DNA of 64,000 nucleotides, taken from Brachyspira hyodysenteriae ATCC 27164 (GTDB lineage Bacteria; Spirochaetota; Brachyspiria; Brachyspirales; Brachyspiraceae). The translations under genes were made by a program, and so were the position numbers. The DNA lies in contig NZ_CP015910.2 in assembly GCF_001676785.2 (NCBI RefSeq), forward strand, positions 434,001 through 498,000, read 5' to 3'. Of the stretch, positions 57,652 through 61,551 are shown one piece after another. Below the pieces are notes generated by a model, which saw only the letters and a program-made list of their open reading frames with translations, ran no database searches and was not told the DNA's origin. The first letter of the stretch is position 1. Each line of letters starts with the position of its first letter.

Positions 57652-57993
57652 CTATAGATTTTCTTTTAGGATTTTAATGATCTCTTCTTTACTTAGAACT
57701 TTACCATATGAAAGAACTTTATCATCTAATAATAGGGCAGGAGTTGACATTACTCCGTAAGAAGCAATTTCAGCCATATCTTCTACATATTTAATAGCTA
57801 AATCAAGTTTTGCTTCTTCTATAGCAGCTATTGTATTTTCCTCTAATTTTTTACAATTAGAGCATCCTGTACCTAATATTTTTACTCTTGCTTCTATAGG
57901 TGATTCTTTTATAGTTTCCTCTTCAACGAAGGGGGTAATAGAAGGACCTCAGCCGCATCCGCCTTTCCCAAATAATATATCTTTTAATGACAT
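57652..57993 (-). CDS. Thioredoxin-fold selenoprotein with CGU motif (in-frame UGA)
   Basis: A 113-residue small thioredoxin of the MTH895/TM0996 (redox-active disulfide 2) type, if UGA at 57951-57949 is read as selenocysteine at residue 15. The frame opens with AAGGAG and ATG 57993, runs MSLKDILFGKGGCG, then UGA, then GPSITPFVEEETIKESPIEA, and enters the thioredoxin fold KILGTGCSNCKKLEENT (CxxC at 44 and 47) and VMSTPALLLDDKVLSYGKVL (cis-Pro). No second start with a ribosome site lies after UGA. The coding match on both sides of UGA to the Cys paralogue at 58421-58732 (KCICGGLC there) argues against a chance stop. The gene closes a cluster with arsenic transport genes. Redox work on metalloid or thiol substrates is inferred. 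Confidence 0.85.
57918..57934 (-). promoter_or_regulatory. Candidate bacterial SECIS hairpin of the first selenoprotein
   Basis: Starting 15 nt after the UGA, CCCCTTC pairs with GAAGAGG (minus strand; one C-A mismatch) around the tri-loop GUU, which sits 22-24 nt after UGA. Bacterial SECIS elements lie in the coding region directly after UGA, with a small apical loop containing G and U. Confidence 0.6.
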
Positions 57994-58017: not shown

Positions 58018-58335
58018 TTATAATTTTTCTTTTAAAATATTAACTATTTTTTCTCTATCCAAGACCTCTCCATAAGATATAAGTTCATCATTTACAATAA
58101 GAGCAGGCAAAGTCATAACTCCGTAATATGACATACTTCCTTTGCTGTCAGTATATTTTATGGATAAATCTAAATTTAGATCTAATATAGCTCTTCTTAA
58201 ATTATCAAGCATATCAAGAGAATTTTTATCATCATTCCCTAAAAGCAGTATTTTTTCTACTTCTCTTTCTATACCCTCATCCTCTAGAGGGTCAGGCAAA
58301 CATCCTCAGCCAAATTGTATTTTTTCTATAGCCAT
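58018..58335 (-). CDS. Thioredoxin-fold selenoprotein with UGC motif and no CxxC (in-frame UGA)
   Basis: A 105-residue paralogue of its neighbours if UGA at 58308-58306 is read as selenocysteine at residue 10. ATG 58335 follows GGAGG closely and the frame reads MAIEKIQFG, UGA, GCLPDPLEDEGIEREVEKILLLG. The thioredoxin fold is kept (YYGVMTLPALIVNDELISYGEVLDREKIVNILKEKL, with cis-Pro), but the CxxC of the other two copies is replaced: aligned residues are Asn34 and Lys37 in GNDDKNS. So Sec10 and Cys12 (U-G-C) are the only visible redox residues. A start at the later Met-less stretch is not supported, since no ATG with a ribosome site lies between UGA and the fold. The next gene starts 24 bp after its stop. 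Confidence 0.82.
58273..58292 (-). promoter_or_regulatory. Candidate bacterial SECIS hairpin of the second selenoprotein
   Basis: Starting 14 nt after the UGA, ACCCTC pairs perfectly with GAGGGT around the 8-nt loop UAGAGGAU, which lies 20-27 nt after UGA. This matches the position of the hairpin in the neighbouring gene. Confidence 0.62.
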
Positions 58336-58363
58336 AATATACCTCCAAAGTTAGTATATACAT

Positions 58364-58420: not shown

Positions 58421-58732
58421 TTACAATTTATCTTTTAATAGTTCAATTATTTCATCTTTATTCAGTACTTTACCATAAGATAATACATTTTCATCTAATA
58501 CTAAGCTAGGTGTGGATATAACTCCATAGGCAGCTATTTTTTCTATATCATAGACATGTCCTACTGTTAAATTAACTCCCATATCTTTTAAAGCTTTTAA
58601 TGTGTTTTCTTCTAATTTTTTACAATTAAGACAGCCTGTACCTAATATTTTTATTCTTGCATTTTCTTCAGATGTATCTGAGCATAATCCGCCGCAGATG
58701 CATTTTGATTTTTTATTGTTATTAAAAAACAT
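58421..58732 (-). CDS. Small thioredoxin-fold protein, Cys paralogue of the selenoproteins
   Basis: A 103-residue cytoplasmic thioredoxin-fold protein with an N-terminal Cys cluster CICGGLC (C11, C13, C17), then the fold KILGTGCLNCKKLEENTLKAL (CxxC at 34 and 37) and VISTPSLVLDENVLSYGKVL. It aligns end to end with the protein at 57652-57993, and C13 falls at or next to the selenocysteine position. Proteins of this group often sit beside ArsP-like permeases and ArsR regulators. AAAGGAG precedes the ATG. A promoter of its own is likely. Confidence 0.92.
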   Translation of the reverse strand: MFFNNNKKSKCICGGLCSDTSEENARIKILGTGCLNCKKLEENTLKALKDMGVNLTVGHVYDIEKIAAYGVISTPSLVLDENVLSYGKVLNKDEIIELLKDKL

Positions 58733-59092: not shown

Positions 59093-60106
59093 TCATACAA
59101 AAAGAAAATAAAAATTATTGAATAAGTATCCAATAATAATTATTCCCAAAGTTACTATAAATACAAAAAACATTAAAAGAGGCATTTTTACTGCTTTTTT
59201 TAGCATAATAATAGATGGTAAAGATAAAGCAGTAACAGACATCATAAATGATAAGATAGTACCAAGTCCAGCACCTTTATAAAATAAACTTTCAGCTATA
59301 GGTAAAGTTCCGAATATATCAGCATACATTGGAATTCCTACTAAAGATGCTAAAGGCACAGAATACCAATTATTTTTTCCTAATATTGTATCTATCCACT
59401 GAGAAGGTATAACATTATGAATAAAAGCACCAATACCTACTCCTATAAAAATATATAAATAAACTTTTTTGATAGTTTGTATAACCTGTTCTTTTGAATA
59501 TATTAATCTTTCTTTTTTTGTCATAGTTTGTATCGCTATTTCTGTATTATTCATTTTTATATTTTTTATAAAGTCTTCTAAATATTTTTCCATTTTTAGT
59601 TTACCTATCAAGGTACCTCCAAGAACTGCAAGTATAAGACCAACTATTACATAAGCAATTGCAATCTTCATACCGAATATACTTGATAAAAGTATCAAAG
59701 AAGCTAAATCTACTAATGGAGATGATATTAAAAATGAAAATGCCATTGAAATAGGTATTCCTGCTGAAGTAAAACCTATAAAAAGAGGAATCGATGAACA
59801 TGAACAAAATGGCGTAACAGTTCCAAGTAAAGCTGCTAATATATTCGCTGATATTCCATTAAATCTGCCCAATATTTTTTTTGTTCTTTCAGGCGGAAAA
59901 AATGACTGAATATATGATATACAAAATATAAGAACTGATAACAGTACAAATATTTTGATAACATCATAAATAAAAAATTGTATTATTCCTTTAACTGTTT
60001 CTGATAAGGCAAAATTATTTAATATATTTCCTATTAAAGTATTAAGCCATTTCATTGATATTATTTGATCTTGTATAAAGATGAATATTGATTTTATAAT
60101 TTCCAT
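59093..60106 (-). CDS. ArsP/UPF0718-family permease
   Basis: A 337-residue inner-membrane permease with about eight helices. The diagnostic motif is LGTVTPFCSCSSIPLFIGFTSAG, with the CSC cysteines that bind trivalent arsenicals in ArsP, followed by FSFLISSPLVDLASLILL; the second half repeats GIPMYADIFGTLPIAESLF. ArsP exports trivalent organoarsenicals, while other UPF0718 members have unknown cargo. The neighbours ACR3 and ArsR support an arsenic role. It lies 51 bp after acr3 in the same transcript. Confidence 0.87.
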   Translation of the reverse strand: MEIIKSIFIFIQDQIISMKWLNTLIGNILNNFALSETVKGIIQFFIYDVIKIFVLLSVLIFCISYIQSFFPPERTKKILGRFNGISANILAALLGTVTPFCSCSSIPLFIGFTSAGIPISMAFSFLISSPLVDLASLILLSSIFGMKIAIAYVIVGLILAVLGGTLIGKLKMEKYLEDFIKNIKMNNTEIAIQTMTKKERLIYSKEQVIQTIKKVYLYIFIGVGIGAFIHNVIPSQWIDTILGKNNWYSVPLASLVGIPMYADIFGTLPIAESLFYKGAGLGTILSFMMSVTALSLPSIIMLKKAVKMPLLMFFVFIVTLGIIIIGYLFNNFYFLFV

Positions 60107-60157: not shown

Positions 60158-61201
60158 TTAATTTTTGAATTTATTTTTTGTGGCATTTGCTATTTTTACA
60201 AGAGTAAGCATTACAGGTACTTCTACCAATACGCCTACAATTGTTGCAAGTGCCGCTCCGGAATTAACTCCGAATAATGATACAGCTACGGCAACAGCAA
60301 GCTCAAAGAAATTTGATGCCCCTATCATTCCTGCAGGTGCCGCTACATTATGAGGAAGTTTTAATAAATAGCTTGCAATATATGCTATAAAAAATATTAA
60401 AAAGGTTTGTAATATTAAAGGTATAGCTATCAAAATTATATGAATAGGGTTAGATAGTATTACATTTCCTTGAAAGCTGAATAATAATATTAATGTTAAT
60501 AGCAGTCCTATTATTGTTATATTATCAAATTTATGTATAAAAGTATTATTGAAATATTCTATTCCTTTTTTACTGCATACATAAACTCTTGTAATAATTC
60601 CTGCTGTTAATGGTATAAGTACAAATAACACAACAGATAAAAATAATGTATCCCAAGGAACTGTAACATTCGATATTCCTAATAAAAATTTTACTATAGG
60701 AACGAATGCTATAAGTATTATTAAATCATTAGTTGCAACCTGCACTACAGTATATGATGGATTTCCATTTGTTAATGCACTCCAAACAAATACCATAGCA
60801 GTACATGGAGCAGCTCCTAAAAGTACAGCACCAACTAAATATTCTTTTGCTAAATCTTTTGGTATAAAATTATTGAGTATAGTATAAAAAAAGAAAGAAG
60901 CTATAAAAAACATAGTAAAAGGTTTTATAAGCCAATTTACAATCCAAGTAACAAATAAACCTTGAGGATTTTTTGTAATATTTTTTATACTTTGAAAATC
61001 AACACTCATCATCATAGGATATATCATAAGCCATATTAATATTGCTATGGGTATAGAAACATTTGCATATTCAAATTTATTTAATGTATTTGGGATTATA
61101 GGCAGGAATTTAGATATTAATACTCCTATAATCATGCATATAAATACCCATAAAGTTAAATATTTCTGAAAAAAACTTATAGACTCTTTCTTATTTTCCA
61201 T
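60158..61201 (-). CDS. acr3: ACR3-family arsenite efflux permease
   Basis: Exports arsenite (and possibly antimonite) using the proton gradient. The 347-residue protein has about ten helices with family motifs YANVSIPIAILIWLMIYPMMMSVDF, GAVLLGAAPCTAMVFVWSALTNGNPSYTVVQVATNDLI (the essential Cys in APCTAMV) and GASNFFELAVAVAVSLFGVNSGAALATIVGVLVEVPVML (essential Glu). It follows arsR by 38 bp. No arsenate reductase gene of the ArsC type is seen nearby, so the operon would act on trivalent arsenic or use another reductant system. Confidence 0.95.
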   Translation of the reverse strand: MENKKESISFFQKYLTLWVFICMIIGVLISKFLPIIPNTLNKFEYANVSIPIAILIWLMIYPMMMSVDFQSIKNITKNPQGLFVTWIVNWLIKPFTMFFIASFFFYTILNNFIPKDLAKEYLVGAVLLGAAPCTAMVFVWSALTNGNPSYTVVQVATNDLIILIAFVPIVKFLLGISNVTVPWDTLFLSVVLFVLIPLTAGIITRVYVCSKKGIEYFNNTFIHKFDNITIIGLLLTLILLFSFQGNVILSNPIHIILIAIPLILQTFLIFFIAYIASYLLKLPHNVAAPAGMIGASNFFELAVAVAVSLFGVNSGAALATIVGVLVEVPVMLTLVKIANATKNKFKN

Positions 61202-61239: not shown

Positions 61240-61551
61240 TTAATCGCATAGAGTTTTTATTTTTTTGTCTTTACTAATTTTTGATGAATAGTAATTCAAA
61301 ACATTTTTTGCTCTTTCAAAACCTTCTTTGTTTATGCTGTAATAAGTCCATTTGCCTTCTTTTCTTGGTATCACTACTTCAGCATCGCATAATATTTTCA
61401 TATGATTCGATAATGTAGACTGCACTATTTTTAATTCTTCTAAAAGTTTGCAGGCACATATTTCAGTATCTTTAATCATATCTAATATTTGAAGTCTGTT
61501 TTCATCGCAGAACGCTTTGAATATTACTGCTTCTTTTTTATAGTCTTTCAT
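61240..61551 (-). CDS. arsR: ArsR-family metalloregulator
   Basis: A 103-residue winged-helix repressor that leaves DNA on binding As(III) or Sb(III). The metal site is C32-A-C34 in TEICACKLLEEL at the start of the recognition segment, followed by KIVQSTLSNHMKILCDAEVVIPRKEGKWTYYSI, the usual helix-turn-helix and wing. It heads the arsR-acr3-arsP transcript. A consensus-like operator lies upstream at 61580-61595. Confidence 0.95.
   Translation of the reverse strand: MKDYKKEAVIFKAFCDENRLQILDMIKDTEICACKLLEELKIVQSTLSNHMKILCDAEVVIPRKEGKWTYYSINKEGFERAKNVLNYYSSKISKDKKIKTLCD

Follow-up and report, generated by a model that had tools for sequence, protein, structure and literature searches.

A 64,000-nucleotide stretch of the Brachyspira hyodysenteriae ATCC 27164 genome, hereafter the window, contains a small gene with UGA in frame at codon 10, predicted to encode a thioredoxin-like protein without the CxxC motif (Table 1). 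The locus raises two linked questions: whether the UGA is read as selenocysteine, and what role would be left to such a protein when the canonical thioredoxin site is gone. An earlier note, made from the sequence alone, presented it as a hidden selenoprotein, but a 2017 paper (PMC5330540) had already described the gene, with its lack of CXXC and its SECIS. That study (Santesmasses, Mariotti and Guigo 2017, Fig 7) described 'Redox-active disulfide protein 2' selenoproteins of Brachyspira in a three-gene cluster, in which Sec.1 is without CXXC and both selenoproteins have candidate SECIS elements. The window gene is the Sec.1 of that study: it comes from the same genus, belongs to PF13192 with a short N-terminal extension carrying Cys/Sec (here U10), lacks CXXC, has a SECIS after the UGA, and shares its cluster with a Cys paralogue and another selenoprotein, giving one Cys and two Sec genes in both descriptions; the protein itself is no different. 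Sec.2 has likewise been known since 2017. The main text of PMC5330540 holds no word beginning with 'arsen' or 'permease', and no paper placing the Sec.1 and Sec.2 selenoproteins in an arsenic context came up among those listed in our literature searches. Our additions are the arsenic-resistance (ars) cluster context and a reinterpretation of the tail only.

In the available parts of two reviews (PMC13188914, PMC9312934), Sec.1 and Sec.2 are tabulated as PF13192 thioredoxin-like selenoproteins with the motifs CxU and UxC, respectively, whereas the CxxC-less copy has UGC here. Because the CXXC-less copy is Sec.1 in PMC5330540, and has UGC in our sequences, the two labels may have been exchanged in these tables. 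The accessible portion of the 2010 B. pilosicoli genome paper already mentions selenocysteine sites predicted in two genes called 'thioredoxin', which may be Sec.1 and Sec.2.

Table 1. Features of the Sec.1 locus and of the selenocysteine machinery. Positions are those of the window, except for the last three rows, which lie on C1 of the same genome.
Feature	Position	Strand	Remarks
arsR/smtB-type metalloregulator	61240..61551	-	NF033788 over cut-off
acr3 arsenite efflux transporter	60158..61201	-	TIGR00832 over cut-off
ArsP-type permease (PF03773), CSC motif	59093..60106	-	212.9 bits; TPFCSCSS in translation
Cys paralogue (first copy), tail CxCGGxC and intact CxxC	58421..58732	-	
GGAGG ribosome-binding site of Sec.1	58342..58346	-	sequence, by eye
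Sec.1 gene, 105-residue thioredoxin-like predicted selenoprotein without CxxC	58018..58335	-	UGA in frame at codon 10
U10 codon, UGA taken as selenocysteine	58306..58308	-	TGA in 23/23 orthologues
bSECIS-like hairpin, 6-bp stem ACCCUC/GAGGGU, 8-nt loop	58273..58292	-	14-33 nt after UGA
Sec.2 gene, tail C-G-U and intact CxxC	57652..57993	-	UGA at 57951-57949
tRNA-Sec	C1:1330845-1330932		own genome
SelA	C1:1330981-1332282		own genome
SelB	C1:1333851-1335635		own genome

Conservation and decoding of the in-frame UGA

Re-reading of the sequence bore out the gene as first drawn, with its coordinates, the GGAGG, the ATG at 58335 and the start MAIEKIQFG-UGA-GCLPDP, the stop being at 58020-58018. A protein match to Sec.1 was present in 24 of the 26 Brachyspira genomes (none in G001 and G003), and an orthologue with FGUGC in 23, being absent from G001, G003 and G019, the last of which has a CGU-type copy only. 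Residue 10 is encoded by UGA in all 23 orthologues and never by a Cys codon; Cys at this position was seen in paralogues only. A Cys counterpart is a usual, yet not a necessary, trait of bacterial selenoproteins. F8, G9, U10, G11, C12, P14 and D15 were invariant across the 23 orthologues, and the sequence 3' of the UGA had a median pairwise dN/dS of 0.18 (248 of 253 pairs, the other 5 having been dropped for pS outside 0.02-0.7), indicating purifying selection; the copy in G008 is shorter, with TAG after 86 codons. The earlier note had argued that the GGC-UGA-GG context shared by the two adjacent genes made chance unlikely, and this context recurs in 18 of 23 Sec.1 genes (GGA-UGA-GG in the other 5) and in 20 of 26 CGU-type genes. 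Outside Brachyspira no Sec.1 was found: a scan of genome contigs gave 14 Brachyspira loci and one partial match (36% over 45 residues) in a gammaproteobacterial MAG, and an exact DNA pattern run against 60 genomes of the phylum gave two matches, both in Brachyspira, which is a weak test because G014, a known Sec.1 genome, was missed too. The Sec.1 gene is confirmed as real, conserved and more than chance.

A bSECIS-like hairpin follows the UGA at a short distance (Table 1). In an alignment of the 23 sequences, of which 19 are distinct, pairing holds in 93.9% of 114 stem cells, compared with 42-65% in slid controls, and two of the six pairs have changed on both sides, in 6 such cells against 0-2 when the stem was slid (C-G to U-A at columns 18-35 in 5 sequences, and columns 19-34 in 1); part of this covariation may be inherited. 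RNAalifold, unprompted, predicted 5 of the 6 stem pairs. In 18 of 23 orthologues no 24-nt segment of the gene was more stable than the hairpin region; in G007, G009, G014, G015 and G021 two or three such segments were. Folded as a single sequence, the hairpin of the window had a z of -1.92, with 7 of 200 shuffles as stable, and a search of the whole window with Rfam at gathering scores returned tRNA-Gly only. The genes selC (tRNA-Sec), selA and selB lie within 5 kb of one another in the same genome, and tRNA-Sec and SelA each scored over cut-off in 25 of the 26 Brachyspira genomes, the exception for both being G021, whose assembly is 86% complete. Because the UGA is conserved, the sequence after it is under purifying selection, the hairpin carries compensatory changes and selC-selA-selB are present, the reading of the Sec.1 UGA as selenocysteine is well supported. 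This small Brachyspira gene very probably makes a selenium-containing protein, as the earlier note had proposed.

The thioredoxin-like fold, its paralogues and the N-terminal tail

Sec.1 matched PF13192 (Thioredoxin_3) at 38.2 bits (cut-off 24.8) in a match that starts at residue 41, beyond the lost CxxC, and no CxxC follows the tail in any of the 23 orthologues, in keeping with the thioredoxin-like fold without this motif that had been claimed. The homologue alignment suggested earlier as a check thus gave an FG-U-GC tail in 23/23 and an absent CxxC in 23/23. The columns of the lost motif, which thioredoxin-type oxidoreductases have at the start of helix 1, are D36 and S39, both in a MAFFT alignment with the paralogues and in the phmmer alignment to 1ILO; N34 and K37, the replacements first named, are two residues off. 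The claim that U10 and C12 are the only redox pair left stands for the window protein and for 21 of the 23 orthologues, where they are the sole possible pair, and fails in G011 and G013 because each carries one extra Cys in the fold.

In an AlphaFold2 model of Sec.1 (36 sequences; mean pLDDT 83.8, pTM 0.71) the fold is well predicted from about residue 30, with block means of 93-97 over residues 31-100 and the thioredoxin order beta-alpha-beta-alpha-beta-beta-alpha present. The N-terminal tail is flexible or unstructured in this model, with pLDDT below 50 at residues 1-5 and 16-23 and averages of 47 and 49 in the first two ten-residue blocks. The cis-proline loop M68-A78 (MSYYGVMTLPA) is invariant in all 23 orthologues, which suggests continued use of the fold's docking face. 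The closest known structure is MTH895 (1ILO), which was both the best PDB sequence match (E 0.0074) and the top PDB match of the model in Foldseek (E 3.2e-3, none being below 0.001). Sec.1 differs from the TIGR00412 MTH895/ArsE family in its lost CxxC and in its score of 36.2 bits, short of the cut-off of 62 that its paralogues pass at 89.3 and 97.5 bits; moreover, the match begins at residue 3 of the 1ILO chain, where there is no space for an N-terminal U-x-C tail. We also considered a SaoT-type thioredoxin-like selenoprotein and rejected it, there being no SaoT match in the NCBIfam results; the ArsP-type permease scored 99.1 bits against SaoE, for which the cut-off is 325.

In our alignment of the paralogues, which is one of two possible (the figure in PMC5330540 aligns the Sec positions instead), the tail is a C-x-C element that reads U-G-C in Sec.1, C-G-U in Sec.2 and C-x-C-GG-x-C in the Cys copy, so that Sec stands at opposite ends of one motif in Sec.1 and Sec.2. 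Homologues were matched in 79 genomes beyond Brachyspira, and the best-scoring six loci, from other spirochaetes, were inspected: CxxC is present in all six and a Cys-rich N-terminal tail in five, the exception being L056. Because both CxxC-bearing paralogues and five of these six outside homologues also have a tail, the Cys/Sec-x-Cys tail probably predates the disappearance of CxxC. The history of Sec.1 would then be one of a tail kept and a CxxC lost, and not, as had been supposed, of an active site that moved into the tail. Sec.1 formed one group with support of 100/100 on a long stem (1.72) in a tree of 56 sequences, for which the truncated G002 copy of Sec.2 and identical sequences were left out; given the 80 columns and the length of the stem, its exact branching point among the paralogues is uncertain.

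A Sec.2-type copy adjoins Sec.1, before or after it, in 21 of 23 genomes (not in G014 and G018), and that of G002 is shortened by a frame change. Of 24 genomes, 14 carry a first copy with Cys, 4 carry one with UGA (G002, G011, G014 and G020) and 6 have none, whereas one Cys copy and two selenoproteins were reported for all genomes analysed in PMC5330540. The tails of the UGA-bearing first copies, which are orthologues of 58421-58732, read CGUGGSC or CGUAPK (L074:3397-3465, L082:2447-2515, L085:1745-1813 and L096:2032-2100).

The arsenic-resistance neighbourhood

The gene order in the window is arsR, acr3, ArsP-type permease, Cys copy, Sec.1 and Sec.2. A copy of arsR occurs with the cluster in all 24 genomes that have any such thioredoxin-like gene, as a fragment in G017 and on another contig in G020. 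The permease was matched in 23 of the 26 genomes (missing in G001, G003 and G017), the match being split in G010 (with stops), G022 and G024 and spread across contigs in G020; acr3 was matched in 14 of 26. Overall, the thioredoxin-like cluster adjoins arsR and the permease in 23 of 24 genomes, and a permease-like gene is found within 1.5 kb of each of the six homologues inspected beyond Brachyspira, that of L056 with just 21% identity. The trio of Cys copy, Sec.1 and Sec.2 thus comes after three ars genes, arsR, acr3 and that of the ArsP-type permease, which makes it likely that the three proteins work in arsenical handling. The available part of PMC2963123 counts redox-active disulfide protein 2 as a determinant of the ars operon that may act with ArsC.

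Other genes are found within this neighbourhood in some genomes. Two ORFs lie between the ars permease and Sec.1/Sec.2 in G010 and G016 (B. pilosicoli-like; L081:2496-4893 and L087:4364-6771), one of them PTS-permease-like by eye, of 474-475 aa, and the other of 315 aa. In another spirochaete (G223), a 255-aa Cys-rich protein, ferredoxin-like by eye and with the C-terminus CSCGGSCC (L053:620-1387), sits between the permease and the thioredoxin-like gene and possibly has a part in metalloid handling.

G017 retains Sec.1 and Sec.2 (at L088) beside arsR and permease genes that are fragments, a search for the permease elsewhere in that genome gave no match, and its Sec.1 has a dN/dS of 0.15-0.19 to three relatives. 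Because both genes are kept there beside remnants, these sequences favour Sec.1 and Sec.2 acting as a working pair and disfavour strict dependence on the permease. With the permease gone and both genes kept, Sec.1 function in G017 would be permease-independent, unless the loss is recent.

Possible functions of Sec.1

We favour, by somewhat more than even chances, an account that joins decoding, history and function. The UGA at codon 10 would be translated as selenocysteine through the downstream hairpin together with SelA, SelB and tRNA-Sec, a step with support in the sequence. Sec.1 would have arisen by duplication among the tail-plus-fold proteins of the ars cluster and would then have lost the CxxC of its fold while retaining the flexible N-terminal U-G-C tail. 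U10 and C12 may form a selenenylsulfide or selenol-thiol pair, and the tail may exchange electrons, or an As(III)-type metalloid that it has bound, with the CxxC of partners, mostly Sec.2 or else the Cys copy, with the fold and its invariant cis-Pro loop acting as a docking platform. The purpose would be detoxification of arsenicals or repair of thiols that they have damaged. Against this account stand G017, which keeps Sec.1 without the permease, G014 and G018, which hold Sec.1 without a Sec.2-type neighbour, the lack of any known Cys orthologue of Sec.1, the disorder of the tail in the model and the modest single-sequence z of the hairpin. Thioredoxin reductase, a flavoenzyme, has a flexible C-terminal GCUG tail whose selenocysteine serves as a redox carrier. 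A mobile Sec tail is found in both proteins, but at the opposite end in Sec.1, and the likeness is one of analogy only, without homology.

Pairs of Sec and Cys are ligands of soft metalloids, and it is possible, though we think it unlikely, that Sec.1 is a metalloid chaperone: the U-x-C, C-x-U and CxCGGxC tails would capture As(III) or organoarsenicals and deliver them by ligand exchange to the CSC of the ArsP-type permease, with redox chemistry secondary. The location in an ars cluster is consistent with such a role, as is the PF-CSC of the permease, an instance of the C(S/T)C motif that the available part of PMC4435449 reports in all ArsP homologues surveyed. However, Sec.1 and Sec.2 are kept in the permease-less G017, the permease match in G010 is split and contains stops, and Sec.1 offers two ligands only. 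We are more doubtful that Sec.1 serves as a general antioxidant or in protein-thiol redox chemistry, with partners such as thioredoxin reductase or peroxidases, and that the ars neighbourhood is incidental. Such a role would fit the STRING neighbours of the family, which are thioredoxin reductases and peroxiredoxins (PMC5330540), and the persistence of Sec.1 and Sec.2 beyond the ars genes in G017, but against it the cluster has arsR and the permease beside it in 23 of 24 genomes, and a permease-like gene is near at 6/6 outside loci. Equally doubtful is a relay in which the Cys/Sec-x-Cys tails of all three proteins would collect thiol-reactive arsenicals and pass them to the permease CSC or to each other's CxxC, making Sec.1, devoid of CxxC, a dedicated carrier based on selenium and so a selenoprotein metallochaperone for arsenic. 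Finally, it is very improbable that the UGA is a true stop, with a shorter protein of 93 aa begun at TTG 58299 and nine upstream codons left as a leader or in decay: a TTG or ATG stands at codon 13 in 15 of 23 orthologues, but the other 8 have no start there and reach their first later one 14 to 31 codons beyond the UGA, and the ATG, F8 G9 and the UGA are conserved while the hairpin co-varies.

Since the gene had been published, our result for Sec.1 chiefly confirms earlier work. Sec.1 nevertheless represents a clean case, in which the canonical thioredoxin site is gone and the predicted selenocysteine tail is under strong selection. Organoarsenicals were once used in farm-animal feed. For these gut spirochaetes of farm animals, the ars neighbourhood lets a redox protein that had no assigned role be tied to arsenic in a testable hypothesis, in which the tail of Sec.1 may exchange electrons or metalloid with the CxxC of a partner.
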